Shown: positions 1,146 to 19,861 of the stretch, in pieces | Layout of the letters: each line of letters opens with the position of its first letter | Numbering within the stretch: the stretch's first letter is position 1 | Source of the DNA: Streptomyces griseoluteus | GTDB taxonomy: Bacteria > Actinomycetota > Actinomycetes > Streptomycetales > Streptomycetaceae | NCBI GenBank assembly: GCA_000717735.1 | Contig: JOBE01000022.1 | Location: forward strand, 110,902-174,901 | DNA: 64,000 bases | Direction: 5' to 3' | The notes under the pieces: generated by a model | The model's database searches: none | What the model was told of the DNA's origin: nothing | Seen by the model: the letters and a program-made list of their open reading frames with translations, nothing else | Program-made: the position numbers and the translations under genes

Positions 1146-1307
1146 AGACCGACCGGCACATGGGGGGGGTGGAAGAAGGAACGGCGCCGGGTGGGTGCAG
1201 CCGCAAGGCGGAGGATCGAGGCATGGCGGAGCCATGGTGATGGACGACAACGCCGCAGATGTGCGTGCCCAGCCCCGCGACGCCGCCCCCCATGTGCCGG
1301 TCGGTCT
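1146..1307. repeat. 162-bp MITE-like element with 22-bp perfect terminal inverted repeats
   Basis: Positions 1146-1167 (AGACCGACCGGCACATGGGG and two more G) are exactly the reverse complement of 1286-1307. The 118-bp interior is GC-rich and has no convincing ORF. The element fills nearly the whole gap between the imine-reductase stop (1130) and the NOS stop (1309), and its right end runs into the first base of the NOS stop triplet. No clear target-site duplication is visible. It could be a MITE or a streptomycete intergenic palindromic element; acting as a convergent terminator is also possible. Confidence 0.7.
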
Positions 1308-2503
1308 CAGGTGCGCGCCAGGAAGGCCGGCCGGAGCGAGGGGTCCACCGGGTCGTAGTACCGGTGGAAGACCGGGGTGGCGGCGCCGGACACCGGGGGG
1401 ACGATCCAGCTCCAGTCGGCGGGCGTCGCCCTGCCGTGCCGGCTCTCCTGGGCGATGTGCCGGAGGAACCGCTGCGACTCGGTGTGGTGGTCGGCCATCG
1501 TCACCCCGGCCTCCTGGAAGGAGTGCAGCACCGCCAGGTTGAGTTCGACGAGCGCCCGGTCGCGCCACAGGGTCCGCTCGGTGGACCGGTCGAGTCCGAG
1601 CCGGTCGGCCACGACCGGGAGGAGGTCGTACCGGTCGGCGTCGGCGAGGTTGCGGGCGCCTATCTCGGTGCCCATGTACCAGCCGTTGAACGGCGCCGCC
1701 GGATACCGCACGCCGCCGATCTCCAGCGTCATGTCGCTGATCGCGGGCACGGCGTACCACCGCAGGCCGAGCTCCGCGAACCACGCGTGGTCGGGGTGGC
1801 TGAGCGGCACCTCGTGCACGGAGCCGTCCGGCAGCTCGTACCACGCGGGCCGCTCGCCGGGGCGCTCCCGCACCATCAACGGCAGTACCTGGAAGGGCTC
1901 TTCCTCCCGCTTCCAGCCCAGGTCGCGGGCCTGCTCGGTCAGGGACGCGCTGCGCGGGTCGCCGCACGGGCCGCCGTCGTCGCCGCGGTGTCCGGCGTAG
2001 CGCACCAGCTGGTCGTTGACGATCCGGGGCGCGGGGCGGCCCGGCCGGTCGGGCGCGAAGACGGAGATCACCGGGCGGATCCTGCCTCCGTTGCCCGCCA
2101 GGCGCAGGTGCTCGAAGCACTCGGCGGCGATGTCGTCGGCGGTGGCGAGGTGCCGCAGGTCGCGCACGACGAGGCTGCGCCAGTAGAGCCTGCCGATGCA
2201 GCGGGCCGCGTTGCGCCAGGCGACGCGGGCGCCGAAGGCGAGTTCGGCCGGGGAGTGCTCGTAGGTTCCGGTCCTGTCGATCTCGGCGAGCACCTGGCGG
2301 ACCCGGATGTCCACGTCTCCGGCGCCGGGTTGCTCGTCGTGGAACTGGCGGACGAACCGTTCGGCCTGCTGCCGGTCGGCGAGGGGCGGCGGCGCGACCG
2401 GGGGCGCGGGGTCGGGGGCGATGCGGGCGGGGTCCCCGGACGTGTAGGGGCAGACGCCCGTGCTGGGGACGGGCTTCCGGCGGCGGCTCAGGCTGAAGAT
2501 CAA
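1307..2503 (-). CDS. nos: Bacterial nitric oxide synthase oxygenase
   Basis: This heme- and tetrahydrofolate/biopterin-dependent oxygenase makes NO and citrulline from L-arginine, drawing electrons from cellular reductases because bacterial NOS usually has no fused reductase. The heme-ligand motif WRNAARCIGR puts the proximal Cys near residue 102. FNGWYMGTEIGARN holds the conserved Glu (about residue 280) that binds the arginine guanidinium. Length (398 aa) fits stand-alone bacterial NOS. A TTG start at 2503 is preferred because GGGAGG sits 6 nt upstream; an in-frame ATG at 2524 has no comparable ribosome site. The gene is divergent from the GNAT/aminotransferase gene at 2716, and the two probably share the 2504-2715 promoter region. 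Streptomyces NOS is known from thaxtomin nitration and NO signalling, but no nitrating P450 is seen here. Confidence 0.95.
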   Translation of the reverse strand: MIFSLSRRRKPVPSTGVCPYTSGDPARIAPDPAPPVAPPPLADRQQAERFVRQFHDEQPGAGDVDIRVRQVLAEIDRTGTYEHSPAELAFGARVAWRNAARCIGRLYWRSLVVRDLRHLATADDIAAECFEHLRLAGNGGRIRPVISVFAPDRPGRPAPRIVNDQLVRYAGHRGDDGGPCGDPRSASLTEQARDLGWKREEEPFQVLPLMVRERPGERPAWYELPDGSVHEVPLSHPDHAWFAELGLRWYAVPAISDMTLEIGGVRYPAAPFNGWYMGTEIGARNLADADRYDLLPVVADRLGLDRSTERTLWRDRALVELNLAVLHSFQEAGVTMADHHTESQRFLRHIAQESRHGRATPADWSWIVPPVSGAATPVFHRYYDPVDPSLRPAFLART

Positions 2504-2632
2504 TGTGTTCCTCCCGGCGTCCATGACTACCGTATGAACACGTGCGGGAGCGGAGAGTACGTGAATCTCCGCATCCGGCGGCGCCGACGCTGGTACGGTG
2601 CCCCGCCCGCCCTCAACTGCCCTGATCATCGG

Positions 2633-2650
2633 CTGAGTACGCGTACTCAG
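2633..2650. promoter_or_regulatory. 18-bp perfect palindrome, candidate operator between nos and the GNAT/aminotransferase gene
   Basis: CTGAGTACGCGTACTCAG is a perfect palindrome lying 65 bp before the ATG at 2716 and about 130 bp before the nos start. Its length and position suit a dimeric (for example TetR-type) repressor site acting on both divergent promoters. No regulator gene is adjacent, so the binding protein is unknown. Confidence 0.6.
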
Positions 2651-2715
2651 GTGCCGTCGGCTTGACTCATCCATGCTGGGGCGCGACTGCCGGACCGTCT
2701 CAGGGGGACACACGC

Positions 2716-4479
2716 ATGGACCACGCCCTACAGCTGCGCACTGCCACGCCCCGGGATCTCGACTGGATCCACGAACTGCGCCACCGGGTGTACGCGGAGG
2801 AGCTCGGCCAGCATCCGGTGGATCCGTCGGGGCGGCTGAGCGACGGGCTCGACGGCGACAACGTCTATCTCGTGGCCGCGCGCGGCGAGACGCGGATCGG
2901 CTTCGTCAGCCTCACCCCGCCGTGGGTCGGCCGCTACTCCCTCGACAAGTACCTGACGCGCGACGAACTGCCGGTCCTGTCCGAGGACGCGCCGTTCGAG
3001 ATCCGCGTGCTGACCGTCGAGGAGCGCTGGCGGTCCACCGCGGCGGCGCCGCTCCTCATGTACGCGGCGCTGCGCTGGGTCGCGGCGCGGGGCGGCCGCC
3101 GGGTGGTGGCGATGGGACGCACGGAGCTGCTCGACATGTACCTCGCCGCCGGGCTGCGGCCGGTGGGGCGCACGGTCCGCTCGGGCGCCGTCTCGTTCGA
3201 GGTCCTCAGCGGTTCCGTGGCCGAGCTGACGAGGACGGTCGCGGAGCGCCACGGCCGGACCCTGGAGCGGCTGCGGACGGGCCTCGACTGGCAGCTCGAC
3301 GTACCGTTCGCGCCGCGCGCGGACGGCTGTGAGCACGGCGGCGCCTTCTTCTCGGCGATCGGCACGGACTTCCGGACGCTGACCCGCCGTCACGAGGTGG
3401 TCGCGGCGGACGTCCTGGACGCCTGGTTCCCGCCGTCCCCTGCGGTCCGCGCGGTCCTGTCGGAGGATCCGGGGTGGGCGGCCCGCACGTCGCCGCCGAC
3501 GGGCGCGGAGGGGCTGCTCGCGGAGATCGCCGGGGCCCGGGGGCTGCCGGTGGAGTCGCTGGTCGTCGGGGCGGGCTCGTCCGACCTGATCTTCCGGGCG
3601 TTCGGCCGGTGGCTGACGCCGGGGAGCCGGGTGCTCCTGCTCGATCCGGGCTACGGGGAGTACGCCCATGTCACCGAGCGGGTGATCGGCTGCCGGGTCG
3701 ACCGGCTCCCACTGCGCAGGGAGGACGGCTGGCTGGTCGATCCGGCCCGGCTCGCCGCCGCGACCGGCGACGGACGGTACGACCTCGTGGTGGTCGTCAA
3801 CCCGAACAACCCGACCGGCCGCCACGCCCCGGCCGACGCGCTGCGCGCGGTGATCGAGGCCTCGCCCGCGCGGACCCGGTGGTGGATCGACGAGGCGTAC
3901 CTGGGCTACGTCGATCCGGCGGACTCGCTCGCCGGGCTCGCCTCGGCCGACGGCCGGGTCGTGGTCTGCACCTCGCTGTCGAAGATGTACGCGCTGTCGG
4001 GGATGCGGGCGGCGTACCTGGTGGCCGATCCCGGGACGGCGGGGGAGCTGCGCCGCTGGACGCCGCCGTGGCCCGTGAGCCTGCCGGCCCAGCTGGCCGC
4101 CGTGACGGCGCTGCGCGACCCCGCGTACTACGCGGAACGCTGGGCCCGCACCCATGTGCTGCGGCGGGAACTGGCCGCCGGGCTCGCGGAGTCGGACGGG
4201 TTCTCCTCGGTCGACGAGGGGGTGGCGAACTTCCTCACGGTGACCCTGCCGCCGGACGGGCCGAGCGCGGCCCGGCTGGTGCGCGAGTGCCGGCGGCACG
4301 ACGTGTTCCTGCGTGACCTGTCGCCGATGTCCCCGGCGTACGAGGGGCGGACCGTCCGGATCGCCGTCCGCGACACGGCGGAGAACGCGCGGATCGTGGC
4401 TGCGTGCCGGAGCGCCCTGGACGTGCTGCGCGCACCGGCCGCGGTGGTGTCGGGCGCGCCGGGGCGGGCCTCCCGGTGA
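2716..4479 (+). CDS. Fused GNAT-type acyltransferase / class I-II PLP aminotransferase
   Basis: The 587-residue protein joins two catalytic domains. Residues about 5-180 form a GNAT/acyl-homoserine-synthase-like fold: 'LRHRVYAEELG' and a later 'EIRVLTVEERWRS...PLLMYAAL' resemble N-acyl amino acid synthases more than ordinary acetyltransferases. Residues about 215-575 are a fold-type I aminotransferase close to histidinol-phosphate/tyrosine aminotransferases, with NPNNPTG (362-368), DEAYLGY (392-398) and the PLP lysine in SLSKMYALSG (K423). The ATG at 2716 follows GGGGG with good spacing. The stop overlaps the GTG of the next gene, so the two products are probably made together. A role in making an acylated amino compound that enters lipid is inference from domains and neighbours; the substrate is unknown. 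Confidence 0.85.
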   Translation: MDHALQLRTATPRDLDWIHELRHRVYAEELGQHPVDPSGRLSDGLDGDNVYLVAARGETRIGFVSLTPPWVGRYSLDKYLTRDELPVLSEDAPFEIRVLTVEERWRSTAAAPLLMYAALRWVAARGGRRVVAMGRTELLDMYLAAGLRPVGRTVRSGAVSFEVLSGSVAELTRTVAERHGRTLERLRTGLDWQLDVPFAPRADGCEHGGAFFSAIGTDFRTLTRRHEVVAADVLDAWFPPSPAVRAVLSEDPGWAARTSPPTGAEGLLAEIAGARGLPVESLVVGAGSSDLIFRAFGRWLTPGSRVLLLDPGYGEYAHVTERVIGCRVDRLPLRREDGWLVDPARLAAATGDGRYDLVVVVNPNNPTGRHAPADALRAVIEASPARTRWWIDEAYLGYVDPADSLAGLASADGRVVVCTSLSKMYALSGMRAAYLVADPGTAGELRRWTPPWPVSLPAQLAAVTALRDPAYYAERWARTHVLRRELAAGLAESDGFSSVDEGVANFLTVTLPPDGPSAARLVRECRRHDVFLRDLSPMSPAYEGRTVRIAVRDTAENARIVAACRSALDVLRAPAAVVSGAPGRASR

Positions 4480-5279
4480 CGACGGTCGCCGGTCTCGTCC
4501 CGTACCTCGGCGGGGCACTGGCGGTCGGGGGCGTCGCGGTGGCGGCGACCCGGCGCCGTGAGCTGATGGTCCGCTGGTGCGTGTGGGCGCTCGGAGTGCC
4601 CCTGGTGACCGCCGCGTTCTGGCTCGGGCCGCCGGGGATCGCGGTGCTCGCGTCCCTCGTCGGAGTGATCGCGGTGGCGGAGTACGCCGGGCTGCTCCGG
4701 CTGGGCCCGCTGGACCGGGCGGTCCTCGGCGCGGCGGTCGTCGGGCTCGTCCTGGCGGCCTGGCTGGCCCCCGGGGAGGTGCTCAGGGTGGCGGCGGCCG
4801 GAGCGCTTGTGATCGCCGGGGTGCCGCTGCTCTCGGGCGACGCGGAGCACGGGCTCCGCCGCCTGGGGGCGGGCCTGCTGGGGCTCGTGTGGCTGGGCGC
4901 CCTGGCCGGTCTCGTACCGTTGGGCGCCCTCGGCCTCGTCCTGTTCGTGGCCGTGTCGATCGCCGACATCGTCGCGTACGCGGCGGGCCGCCGTCTCGGC
5001 GGCCCGCGGCTCTCACCGCTGTCGCCCGCCAAGCGGTGGAGCGGCACGCTGGCCGGGGCCGCCGCCGGCCTCCTCACGCTGGCCGTACTGTCCTCCCTGA
5101 CCTGGCAGACGGCGGTGGCCGTGGCGGTCGGCGGCCCGCTCGGGGACCTGCTGGAGTCGATGGTCAAGCGGGGCGCCCGCGCGAAGGACGCCGGCAACTG
5201 GCTGGCCGGCTCCGGGGGCCTCCTCGACCGGATCGACTCCCTCCTCGTCGCCCTGGCGGTGCTGTTGGTGCTGGGGTGA
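4476..5279 (+). CDS. CdsA-type phosphatidate cytidylyltransferase (integral membrane)
   Basis: The 267-residue product is a multi-pass membrane protein of the CTP-transferase-1 family, which turns phosphatidic acid plus CTP into CDP-diacylglycerol. The C-terminal family signature is readable: LSPAKRWSG, then GDLLESMVKR, then KDAG and LLDRIDSLL, ending at the membrane. About seven hydrophobic segments cover the rest. The GTG start overlaps the preceding stop (GTGA), showing translational coupling to the GNAT/aminotransferase gene. Streptomycetes carry a housekeeping cdsA elsewhere (near rpsB-tsf-frr), so this is likely a second, pathway-specific copy (inference). The N-terminal part is shorter than that of housekeeping CdsA. 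Confidence 0.85.
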   Translation: MTTVAGLVPYLGGALAVGGVAVAATRRRELMVRWCVWALGVPLVTAAFWLGPPGIAVLASLVGVIAVAEYAGLLRLGPLDRAVLGAAVVGLVLAAWLAPGEVLRVAAAGALVIAGVPLLSGDAEHGLRRLGAGLLGLVWLGALAGLVPLGALGLVLFVAVSIADIVAYAAGRRLGGPRLSPLSPAKRWSGTLAGAAAGLLTLAVLSSLTWQTAVAVAVGGPLGDLLESMVKRGARAKDAGNWLAGSGGLLDRIDSLLVALAVLLVLG

Positions 5280-5334
5280 GCCACGGGGGCGGGAGGTCTT
5301 GACCGGGGAGGGACCCCAGCGGCTACAGTCGATA

Positions 5335-8594: not shown

Positions 8595-9106
8595 TCGTCC
8601 TCGCCCCCCTCGGCTCCGGTCACGGGCACCGCGCTCAGCGCCGCGACCCGCCACGTGTCCTCGCCGGTGCGCGTCAGGACGGCCTCCAGGCGCTTGCGGT
8701 CGGTGGTCGGGCCGCCGGCCCCGCGCGGGGTGACGTCGACGCGGACGGTCGCGATGAGCTTCGCCGTACCGGCTCGCGTGTCCAGCGCGGTGAGGGCGGC
8801 CTCGGTGACCGTGGCGCGCGCCGAGGCGCCCACCGCGGCCTCGGTGCGGCCCAGTTCGGTGCGGAGCGGTCCGGTCGAGGCGTCGCGCCAGGCCCGGATG
8901 CCCGCTTCGGCGCGCTCGCGGGTCGAGGCGTCGAGCGTGTTCAGGACGGTGAGGCGGTGGCGGCCCTCGGCGAGGGCGGTGTCCCGTTCGCGGCCGAAGG
9001 CGAGTTCCTCGTCGGTGCGGGCCTGGGCGTAGGTCCAGGCGCCGGACCCGCAGAAGCCCAGGGCGACGACGAGGGCGCCGGCGCCGAGGATCCTGGCCCG
9101 CCTCAT
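8591..9106 (-). CDS. Mce-associated membrane protein (Mam)
   Basis: A 171-residue single-pass protein: an N-terminal helix (ILGAGALVVALGFCGSGAW) then an outside domain with 'HRLTVLNTLDASTRERAEAGIRAW', the same pattern as in the 7429-7971 product, so these two Mams are close paralogues. The ATG at 9106 overlaps the stop of mceF (ATGA). It is the first of four Mam genes that end the operon, more than the one or two most mce loci carry. Confidence 0.8.
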   Translation of the reverse strand: MRRARILGAGALVVALGFCGSGAWTYAQARTDEELAFGRERDTALAEGRHRLTVLNTLDASTRERAEAGIRAWRDASTGPLRTELGRTEAAVGASARATVTEAALTALDTRAGTAKLIATVRVDVTPRGAGGPTTDRKRLEAVLTRTGEDTWRVAALSAVPVTGAEGGEDE

Positions 9107-10413
9107 CGCGTGCTCCCGGTGATCGGGGTGGGCCCGGTGGTCGGGGCGCTCCCGGTGCCCAGGCCGAGGAGACCGGCCATGTCCTTCGGCCCGTCGGTGT
9201 GGCCGGGCAGCGCGAGCGCGCCGGGCAGGGTCGTCCGCGCGCCCGGTTTGGGGTGTGTGCTGCCCGAGGGCAGAGCGCCGGGCCTGGCCGGTTCGGGCAC
9301 CCCTCCGGCCTTCGGAGCCTGGGCCGAGCCGCGTACGTTGACCCCGGTGGCGGCGGAACTCGTGCAGGAGGCGCCGGTGTTGAGGGCGGGTGCCGTTCCC
9401 AGGTCGAGCCCGTTGCGGTAGCGCGTACCGCCGTATCCGGACGTGCAGGGCAGCGGCTTGAAGAAGGTGACGGCGAGACCGATCCTCAGGCGTCCTCCGT
9501 CGACGGCGGTGGCTCCGGCGGCGACGGCCGCCGGGAGCTTCACGAGCAGTTCCTCGGTGCCGCGTTGCCGGGTGACGGCGATCTCCGAGGTGGTGAGGAG
9601 GTTGGCGAGGACGACGCTGAGGCTCGGGTCGAGGTCGCGCAGGAGGCCGCTGACCTGGCCGGCCGCGTCGGGCGTGACGGCGAGGAGGCGGCGCAGGTCG
9701 GCGTCGGAGCCCTTCAGGGTGGCGGCGAGGTCGCGCGCGCCGGTGGCGAAGTCCCGGATGGCGCGGCTCTCTTCGGCCTGGGTGCGCAGGACGACCTCCC
9801 CGTCGTCGATGAGCCGGGTGGTGGCGGGCAGCGCGTCGTCGGCGGCCTGGACGAATCTGCTGCCGTTGTCGAGGAGGGCCTGGAGGTCGTCGCCGTGTCC
9901 CTCGAAGGCCTTGCCGAGTTCGTCGACGACCGTGCGCAGGGATTCCAGCGGTACGGAGCGGGTGAGGTCGTTCATGCTCGCGAGGACGTCGGTGACGGGC
10001 GCCGGTACCTGGGTGTCGGACTGCTCGACGCGGGCGCCGTCGGTGAGGAAGGGGCCGTCGTCGCTCTCGGGGCGCAGGTCGATGTACTGCTCGCCGACGG
10101 CGGAGAGTCCGGCGACGACGGCCCGCGCGTCGGCGGGGATCCGGGGGGCGGACTTCTTGATGCGCAGTTCGGCGACGACTCCGTCGGCGGTGAGGCCGAT
10201 GTCTCCGACGCGTCCCACGGAGACGCCCCGGTACGTGACGTCGGAGTGGGTGAACAGGCCTCCGGTACGGGCGAGATGGACCCGCACGGTGTAGTGGTCG
10301 GCGACTCCGGCGTAGCGGCCGAGGTCGGCGTAGCGGATGCCGACGAAGCCGAGGACGAGCACGGCGATGACGAGGAAGGCCAGGTTCTTCAGCCGTACGG
10401 TTCGGGTGATCAC
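9103..10413 (-). CDS. mceF: Mce family lipid-transport protein, sixth position (MceF)
   Basis: The 436-residue protein starts with a membrane anchor (NLAFLVIAVLVLGFVGI, residues 9-25), followed by an MlaD/Mce domain at about 35-115 (VTYRGVSVGRVGDI is the domain core) and a long helical region that builds the lipid-conducting tunnel in the Mce hexamer. The C-terminal about 90 residues are Pro/Gly/Thr-rich and probably disordered. The GTG start overlaps the mceE stop (GTGA). As sixth of six Mce genes in order it corresponds to MceF. A substrate such as a sterol or fatty acid cannot be read from sequence. Confidence 0.88.
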   Translation of the reverse strand: MITRTVRLKNLAFLVIAVLVLGFVGIRYADLGRYAGVADHYTVRVHLARTGGLFTHSDVTYRGVSVGRVGDIGLTADGVVAELRIKKSAPRIPADARAVVAGLSAVGEQYIDLRPESDDGPFLTDGARVEQSDTQVPAPVTDVLASMNDLTRSVPLESLRTVVDELGKAFEGHGDDLQALLDNGSRFVQAADDALPATTRLIDDGEVVLRTQAEESRAIRDFATGARDLAATLKGSDADLRRLLAVTPDAAGQVSGLLRDLDPSLSVVLANLLTTSEIAVTRQRGTEELLVKLPAAVAAGATAVDGGRLRIGLAVTFFKPLPCTSGYGGTRYRNGLDLGTAPALNTGASCTSSAATGVNVRGSAQAPKAGGVPEPARPGALPSGSTHPKPGARTTLPGALALPGHTDGPKDMAGLLGLGTGSAPTTGPTPITGSTR

Positions 10414-11627
10414 CGGTTCTCGCCTCCGTCCTTGGGTGGGGTGGCGGACTCCGGCGGGATGCCCGTACGGACCGGAGGCAGCGGGAGGGCCGTCTCCGGG
10501 CTCCGGGCGGTGCCGCCCGTCTCCCCTGGCTCACCGGAGGCCGGGGGCGAAGGGGAGGCGGTGGGCTCGGCCTGCGGGATCAGGGGCGGGATCACCTCGG
10601 TGCCGGGGGCGGCGGCGAGGTGCAGATAGGTGTTGAGGTAGTCGCCCTTGACGCCCCGCATGACCTCGTCGGTGAAGGGATACGTCAGGAGGACCTGGAG
10701 CGATGCGGGCAGGTCGGCACCGGCGTCCGCGAGTGCCTTCAGGGTGGGCGCGAGGGCCTTGAGGTCGGCGACCATGTCCTTCTTGCTCGCGTCGATGGTG
10801 GTGACGGCGACGCCGGACAGCGTGTCCAGGGCGCGCAGCATGGTCAGCAGGGACCCTCGCTGGTTCTCCAGGGTCTTCAGTCCTGGCGAGAGGCCGGTGA
10901 GGACCGTGTCGACGTCCTTCTGGCGGCCGGCGAGGGTGGCGGAGAGCCGGTTGACGCCGTCGAGGGCGCGGGTGATGTCGCCGCGGTGCGCGTCCAGGGT
11001 CGTCACCAGGGTGTTCACGCGCTTCAGCATCGAGCGGACCTCGGGTTCGCGGCCGCCGAGCGCCGCGTCGAGTTCGCGGGTGATGGTCTTGAGCTGGTTG
11101 ACGCCGCCGCCGTTGAGCAGCAGGGACAGCGCACCGAACACCTCCTCGACCTCGGTGTTGCGGCTGGTCCGGGCCAGCGGGATGACGCTGCCGTCGGCGA
11201 GCCGTCCACCGCCGTCCTTCCGGGGGGCGACGAGCTGGATGTACTTCTCGCCGAGGAGGCTCGACTGTTCCAGGCGGGCGCTCGCGTCCGCGGGCAGCCG
11301 GACGTCGCCGTTGATGGCGAGGGTGACGCGGGCGGACCAGGTGCCGGTCGCGAGCTCGATGGCGGTGACACGGCCGACGGCGACGTCGTTGACCTTGACC
11401 GCGGACTGCGGGACGAGGCTGAGTACGTCGTCGAGTTCGGCGGTGACCGTGTAGGGGTGGGCGCCGAGGTCGGCGCCGCCGGGCAGGGGCAGGTCCTCGA
11501 TGCCGTCGAAGCGGAACGGGTTCGCGGGGACGGCGCCGAGGAGGAGGGCGAGTCCCACGCCGAGGGCGACCAGTCCGGCCGCGCCGGTGGCGGCGGCCTT
11601 GGCGGAGGGCGGGGTGCCGCGTCTCAT
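10410..11627 (-). CDS. mceE: Mce family protein, fifth position (MceE/LprK-like) lacking the lipobox cysteine
   Basis: The 405-residue product aligns by pattern with MceE/LprK: after the anchor comes '[22 protein letters not shown]', then the MlaD core '[13 protein letters not shown]' and a helical tunnel domain. MceE homologues are usually lipoproteins with a Cys just before this 'PLPGG' segment. Here the corresponding stretch reads [15 protein letters not shown] with no Cys, so attachment must be through the hydrophobic helix (about residues 18-34). The C-terminal about 70 residues are Pro/Ser-rich. The ATG overlaps the mceD stop (ATGA). Confidence 0.87.
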
Positions 11628-17573: not shown

Positions 17574-18583
17574 GAGCCGCTCCCGGGACGTGGCACGGAC
17601 AGGGTGGGTGCCGCGGCGGCGCGCGCGTAGGTGTCGCGGATGGCGGCGCGGGCGGCGGGCGGCAGGCTGTCCAGCATGCCGAGGACCCGCTCCCGCCGTC
17701 GGGCGACGGCCGCGCGGGGCGGCAGGCCGGGCGAGGGTTCCAGCTGCGGGACGATGACGGGGGGCCCGGCTGTCCGGTGGTTGGCGGGGTCGACCAGCTC
17801 GGCGGCGAGCAGGGCGGCGTCCTTCTCCTCGGACATGCCGATGGGGCCTTCGCGGCGGCCTGCGAGGAACTGGGTCACGACCGGTTCGTCGCTGGTGAGG
17901 AGCACTTCGCGCGGGCCGAAGGTGACGAGGTTGCGCCGGAAGAACATGCCCATGTTGTCGGGGACGGTGGCGGCGATGTCCAGGTTGTGGGTGACGATCA
18001 GCATCGTCGCGTCGATCCGGGCGTTGAGGTCGATGAGCAGCTGGGACAGGTAGGCGGTGCGGACGGGGTCGAGCCCGGAGTCGGGTTCGTCGCACAGCAC
18101 GATCTGCGGGTCGAGCACGAGCGCGCGGGCGAGGCCGGCGCGTTTGCGCATGCCGCCGCTGATCTCGCCCGGCAGCTTCCCCTCCGCGCCGAGCAGGCCG
18201 ACGAGGTCGATCCGCTCCATCACGATGCGCCGGATCTCCGACTCCCGCTTGCGGGTGTGTTCGCGCAGCGGGAAGGCGATGTTGTCGAAGAGGGTCATGG
18301 AGCCGAAGAGCGCGCCGTCCTGGAACATGAGGCCGAAGAGTTTCCGGGTCTCGTAGATGTCGCGTTCCGCACCGCCGACCATGTCGACGCCGTTGATGAG
18401 GACGCGGCCCTGCTGGGGCTTCAGCAGCCCGATGAGCGATTTCAGGAAGACCGTCTTCCCGGTTCCGGAAGGGCCGAGCATGACGCTCACCTCTCCGGCC
18501 GGCAGGGTCAGTGTCACGTCCTGCCAGATGTTCTGCTTGCCAAAGGACATGGTCAGACCCTCAACGACTACTTCGATTCCCAT
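17570..18583 (-). CDS. mceG: Mce transporter ATPase (MceG/Mkl, MlaF family)
   Basis: A 337-residue ABC ATPase that powers the Mce importer. Walker A GPSGTGKT (37-44), Q-loop MFQDGALFGS, signature ISGGMRKRAGLARAL (the 'GGM' form typical of MlaF/Mkl), Walker B IVLCDEPDSGLDP and the switch His in VTHNLD are all intact. The last about 90 residues extend beyond the ATPase domain, as in actinobacterial MceG, where the extension contacts the partner subunit. GGAGG precedes the ATG. It is the first gene of an operon running at least to 6627; two tandem TGTC-n8-GACA repeats about 110-160 bp upstream are candidate operators. Confidence 0.93.
   Translation of the reverse strand: MGIEVVVEGLTMSFGKQNIWQDVTLTLPAGEVSVMLGPSGTGKTVFLKSLIGLLKPQQGRVLINGVDMVGGAERDIYETRKLFGLMFQDGALFGSMTLFDNIAFPLREHTRKRESEIRRIVMERIDLVGLLGAEGKLPGEISGGMRKRAGLARALVLDPQIVLCDEPDSGLDPVRTAYLSQLLIDLNARIDATMLIVTHNLDIAATVPDNMGMFFRRNLVTFGPREVLLTSDEPVVTQFLAGRREGPIGMSEEKDAALLAAELVDPANHRTAGPPVIVPQLEPSPGLPPRAAVARRRERVLGMLDSLPPAARAAIRDTYARAAAAPTLSVPRPGSGS

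Positions 18584-19861
<1,278 letters not shown>

Follow-up and report, generated by a model that had tools for sequence, protein, structure and literature searches.

A mobile Streptomyces cassette of a GNAT/PLP fusion gene and a CdsA-type gene, with a possible role in aminolipid synthesis

A 64,000-nucleotide stretch of the Streptomyces griseoluteus genome (GCA_000717735.1, contig JOBE01000022.1, positions 110,902 to 174,901; hereafter the window) carries a nitric oxide synthase (NOS) gene divergent from a gene for a GNAT acyltransferase fused to a pyridoxal phosphate (PLP) enzyme, which is followed by a gene of the CdsA type. Which of these genes belong together, and what could they make? The initial annotation, whose range of 1307-5279 was accurate, suggested that all three may build an acylated amino compound attached to lipid, with nitric oxide as signal or nitrating agent. 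The features in question are listed below.

1307..2524, minus strand: bacterial NOS, oxygenase domain only (PF02898, 479 bits), a neighbour and not a member of the cassette
2633..2650: 18-bp perfect palindrome CTGAGTACGCGTACTCAG, at the left edge of the conserved cassette within the 191-bp gap between NOS and fusion
2716..4479, plus strand: GNAT/PLP fusion enzyme, residues 1 to about 190 GNAT and about 205-573 fold-type I PLP enzyme
4476..5279, plus strand: divergent CdsA-type cytidine triphosphate (CTP) transferase (PF01148), its start overlapping the fusion stop (GTGA)
2630..5288, plus strand: extent of the cassette, DNA common to other species with unrelated flanks

Extent and mobility of the cassette

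The fusion and the CdsA-type gene travel as a pair. The GTG start of the latter (4476-4478) overlaps the TGA stop of the former (4477-4479), as first described, and the gene ends at 5279 and encodes 267 amino acids. Counts for loci refer to L022-L101, the best 80 of 131 fusion relatives, since the full set of 101 loci includes duplicates; their upstream flank is shorter than 500 bases in four and at least 5000 bases in 69. CdsA directly follows the fusion in 75 of the 80, 3-138 bases past the aligned fusion end, where adjacency of CdsA, and likewise of NOS, was counted by tblastn. The two are also adjacent in seven of eight genomes from other genera of the class, the exception being L170, identified by protein match as Motilibacter. 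CdsA-like copies of at least 70% identity occur in 17 of 199 Streptomyces genomes, each with the fusion alongside. These results support the view that the two genes form one unit, and the predicted co-occurrence thus held for fusion and CdsA.

Several individual loci are unusual. An eighteenth genome (G188; L245, 7194-8193) holds a decayed cassette with a fusion remnant and CdsA in pieces. Genome G141 has two cassette copies, and one of its fusion genes contains an internal TGA. In Actinoplanes aureus (L101, 11574-13538) the place of CdsA after the fusion is taken by a gene for a serine recombinase (Resolvase, 67.7 bits).

The cassette measures about 2.65 kb, beginning at the palindrome and ending shortly beyond the CdsA stop, and its DNA is up to 94% identical between species with unrelated flanks. 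Borders found by blastn against the six species shown fall at 2621-2632 and 5286-5292. When window positions up to 12 kb were compared with the 80 loci, similarity spanned the fusion in all 80, CdsA in 75-76 and either side in one or two. Within a close clade of 25 sequences, the 299 matching pairs have a median DNA identity of 88.5%, and flanks are common to five of them. The palindrome could be placed in 249 pairs; the shared block starts at most 10 bases from it in 195, and its right edge lies 2630-2680 bases on, near the CdsA stop, in 208.

Copies are found on chromosomes and on plasmids. Eight plasmids in PLSDB encode the fusion, all from Streptomyces, of which PLSDB predicts one to be conjugative, two mobilizable and five non-mobilizable. 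Identity to the window protein is 87% for a copy from Actinorhabdospora (Micromonosporaceae) and 64-65% for two from Actinoplanes. No terminal repeats were seen by eye at the cassette ends. We conclude that the cassette is a discrete, self-contained, horizontally moving two-gene unit. On one linear Streptomyces plasmid (L206), IS5 transposase genes flank it at 9763-10710 and 18208-19037.

What the cassette may make

The fusion encodes 587 amino acids, and its description as a two-domain GNAT/PLP protein proved correct. The GNAT half is weakly marked by sequence: FeeM scores 21.1 bits, below its cut-off of 27, and Acetyltransf_1 scores 21.0, just above 20.7. Among 34 aligned fusion relatives, 29 match the FeeM profile at E 0.01 or better. 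Structural modelling predicts a clear autoinducer-synthase fold of the LuxI/FeeM type, that of the acyl-homoserine lactone (AHL) synthases, which agrees with the resemblance to N-acyl amino acid and autoinducer synthases proposed earlier. The half is 14-20% identical to FeeM and LuxI-type AHL synthases (2g0b, 5w8c, 6wn0); unlike them it is joined to a PLP enzyme, and the window protein lies under the Pfam FeeM cut-off.

The C-terminal PLP half matches Aminotran_1_2 (115.5 bits). Its closest folds and best profiles are those of CobD, the L-threonine-O-3-phosphate decarboxylase (1lc5/1lc7), and SMUL_1544 (6oux). The CobD profile TIGR01140 gives 184.1 bits for the fusion and 172-185 bits for four relatives, and it beats the HisC profile TIGR01141 (152.9 bits for the fusion) in five of five fusion proteins tested. 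The catalytic Lys, Asp, Asn and Arg and the N-terminal His-Gly motif of CobD are retained; all 84 aligned relatives have HGG, N364, D392, K423, R431, R533 and R548. The host carries a separate CobC with HGD, whereas the fusion has HGG. Fusion relatives occur in several bacterial phyla and are mostly labelled plain aminotransferases; many database entries bear the name HisC.

The CdsA-type protein scores 107.8 bits against PF01148 (versus 24) and 55.4 bits against PRK11624, under the cut-off of 385. As first noted, it is a second CdsA in this genome, where the other of two PF01148 matches scores 224.3 bits. With the CdsA phosphatidate cytidylyltransferase (4q2g) it shares the family and most of an HGG-containing pattern that we take to be the CdsA signature. 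Both 4q2g and the host's own CdsA (L110) keep the signature His; in the cassette proteins it is replaced in 84 of 84 copies, by Ser in 70, Ala in 13 and Thr in one.

A related CdsA group, 47-52% identical, passes E 1e-40 in 15 of the 199 genomes; G103, one of these 15, has the full cassette as well. All eight related copies read (L237-L244) have Phe at the position of the signature His. Beside them stand a CDP-alcohol phosphotransferase (three of three tested: L239, L241, L243; CDP, cytidine diphosphate) and a PlsC-type acyltransferase (two of two tested: L239, L242), and because of these neighbours we place this CdsA-like subfamily in phospholipid synthesis. The operon of phosphotransferase, His-less CdsA (Phe) and PlsC-type gene, at L239 5256-7914 and across L237-L244, lies by eye near proline-use and leucine-synthesis genes and looks like an uncharacterised phospholipid mini-pathway.

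Tentatively, and ahead of the other readings, we propose that the mobile cassette is self-contained, is controlled by an operator of its own and makes a precursor of an aminolipid that is N-acylated and activated by CTP, with NOS as a bystander. We infer the aminolipid route, substrate and product included, from sequence families and predicted folds. The CobD/HisC-like domain would first make an amine, most likely an amino-alcohol phosphate obtained by decarboxylation of O-phospho-threonine, O-phospho-serine or another phospho-amino acid. The fused GNAT domain could then N-acylate this amine from acyl carrier protein- or coenzyme A-bound acyl chains, an order suggested by the need of PLP chemistry for a free amine. 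The membrane CdsA-like protein may finally move cytidine monophosphate (CMP) from CTP onto the phosphate, and a host CDP-alcohol phosphotransferase could use the CDP-activated product. Decarboxylation, acylation and CMP transfer in sequence would explain why three activities share one operon. A parallel is offered by the N-acyltransferases OlsB and GlsB, which, according to PMC11631085, form the amide bond of a lyso-aminolipid and usually have an O-acyltransferase (OlsA) as partner; the fusion has a PLP domain and CdsA instead. The idea of an acylated amino compound tied to lipid still leads, carried by the GNAT fold and by the fusion-CdsA unit, and its nitric oxide part is dropped.

Several observations weigh against this proposal. 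The fusion falls under the family cut-offs of both TIGR01140 (290.55) and TIGR01141 (276.55), and the structural scores of its PLP half for CobD and HisC are tied. All 84 relatives have Tyr395 in a HisC-type DEAY motif, where CobD has Phe (DEAF). The N-terminal arm, which is altered relative to CobD, reads DAWFPPSP and RTSPPTG where HisC has the arm motifs NENP and RYP. With the signature His lost, enzymatic activity of the CdsA-type protein is not assured. CdsA was not found in five of the 80 loci (L064, cut by a contig end, and L070, L089, L093 and L101), nor in Motilibacter. No third gene conserved with the cassette was found among the gene clusters in the loci, for which open reading frames were predicted by a crude caller that relies on GC content and overlooked some genes; downstream genes common to about ten loci were ascribed to synteny between related strains.

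The PLP domain might instead be a HisC-like aminotransferase that makes or consumes an amino acid. The GNAT domain would then produce an autoinducer-like signal or an N-acyl amino acid, and CdsA would have an indirect role in supplying or remodelling lipid. This is a possible reading that we favour less, and as regards the PLP chemistry aminotransferase is nearly as likely as decarboxylase. The fusion shares its fold and the DEAY motif with HisC and differs in lacking NENP and RYP, in carrying the additional GNAT domain and in scoring below the cut-off. The consistent preference for TIGR01140 and the CobD-like HGG motif speak for a decarboxylase, and no gene for a receptor or regulator was seen to be conserved next to the cassette.

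It is rather unlikely that the cassette acts as a selfish element or serves defence or self-protection, for instance by modifying the membrane against phages or lipid-targeting antibiotics. Such a role would explain its mobility and patchy occurrence, and it fits the sharp borders and unrelated flanks, the eight plasmids and the IS5 genes on either side in one of them. The fusion is present in about a tenth of the sampled Streptomyces species (19 of 199, a count that drops the 38% identical, C-terminal-only match in G002 from an initial 20 and keeps the partial match in G161). Against it, none of the three proteins matches a PADLOC model at E 0.01, and a known anti-phage defence system was rejected on that basis; no phage record matches at E 1e-40, a search of viral contigs with the Opitutus relative P0246 gave no confirmed match, and fusion relatives also occur in other phyla. 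Carriage by phages was discarded on the same searches.

We found no description of the fusion or the operon in the open-licence literature (CC0, CC BY or CC BY-SA), searched by title and the start of the abstract. If the aminolipid proposal is true, the cassette would represent a new route to amide-linked membrane lipids or lipid signals, by way of a fusion enzyme with relatives in several phyla. Because its borders are clean and its operator is portable, the cassette lends itself to tests by deletion or transfer.

The palindrome upstream of the fusion

The 18-bp palindrome is real: CTGAGTACGCGTACTCAG is the sole match in the window at up to three mismatches, and none of 100 shuffles has one. 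Scored as at least 14 of 16 positions (one position free) within 400 bases upstream of the fusion, a site is present in 76 of 91 loci and in two of 3885 control windows, which together with the shuffles rules out a chance palindrome. Below the threshold are 15 of the 91 loci, including all eight copies from other genera (L163-L170), both Actinoplanes copies and that of Actinorhabdospora. Five further loci have a weaker site (CAAGTAC...) 133-234 bases away. The palindrome is a feature of the cassette as it occurs in Streptomyces. Between it and the start codon there are mostly about 64-67 bases in copies of the close clade, as against about 76-95 in those of the other clade.

Similar sites are widespread. 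The S. griseoluteus genome has one exact site, at the fusion promoter, and 15 strand matches at up to two mismatches versus three for a reversed control. Exact sites, one or more per genome, are present in 174 of the 199 Streptomyces genomes, and matches to the reversed control in two. Of the 38 motif loci read, at least five have by eye a site just upstream of a predicted lipoprotein gene (L109, with two mismatches, L122, L123, L126 and L141). Across L112-L141 the 16-bp palindrome is seen by eye in many Streptomyces genomes between two genes that are presumably maf and a small accE-like gene, and also ahead of several genes for lipoproteins.

The palindrome is probably the operator of the fusion/CdsA operon. 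Together with most of the Streptomyces loci it matches TGAGTACnnGTACTCA, a putative form of the MacR consensus, and MacR, of the MacRS two-component system, is a candidate regulator here. According to PMC10345050 a MacR consensus has been identified, and PMC9739842 gives membrane proteins and lipoproteins as direct MacRS targets, with which the sites before lipoprotein genes fit. BldM was rejected as owner of the palindrome, since its Group I site TCACcCgnncGgGTGA, as given in PMC4125116, does not fit. The fullest version of the proposal would have the 2.65-kb cassette install a phospholipid-like pathway, from an N-acyl amino-alcohol phosphate to a CDP-activated lipid via the His-less CdsA, under a host MacR-type regulator of membrane-protein genes; taken as a whole it is unlikely.

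The closeness of the left border of similarity to the palindrome in 195 of 249 pairs could also mean that the palindrome is not an operator but the place where the cassette recombines or inserts. We give this little credence, because the right border has no matching sequence and the ends no visible repeats, the genomes with exact sites are mostly free of the cassette, and the spacing to the start codon falls mostly into the two ranges given above.

Nitric oxide synthase and other neighbours

The NOS itself is genuine, as first claimed. It matches positions 7-347 of 362 in the PF02898 profile with 479.1 bits (cut-off 22.7), and among solved structures the top matches are NOS oxygenases from Bacillus (384.5 bits, query residues 52-391). 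The protein has no second Pfam domain and is without a reductase domain. Its stop lies at 1307 and its likely ATG, inferred from the translation, at 2524.

NOS lies within the retrieved flank of the fusion in one of the 80 loci, that of S. exfoliatus, which is about 95% identical to the window across the first 12 kb. Among the 199 Streptomyces genomes 48 encode NOS and 19 the fusion, and both occur in six versus 4.6 expected (Fisher p = 0.41). DNA shared between species begins at the palindrome and leaves NOS outside. Being rare near the fusion, unassociated with it and outside the border, NOS did not show the co-occurrence that had been predicted for it and is ruled out as a member of the module. 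We conclude that it is a bystander and that the link to nitric oxide, tempting as it is, is wrong. A pathway in which NOS-derived nitric oxide nitrates, or signals to, the acylated lipid-linked product of fusion and CdsA has in its favour that NOS and fusion lie side by side and divergent in S. exfoliatus as in the window; it is highly improbable on these counts and because the palindrome is kept at loci without NOS. In one genome (G004) NOS and fusion lie about 33 kb apart on the same contig.

The surrounding genes of the window are as follows.

216-1130: reductive-aminase-like NAD(P)-dependent enzyme, by Pfam test, left neighbour of NOS
from 5412: thiolase gene, downstream of the CdsA-type gene
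9103-10413, minus strand: MCE family protein gene, possibly part of an mce operon reaching about 16800
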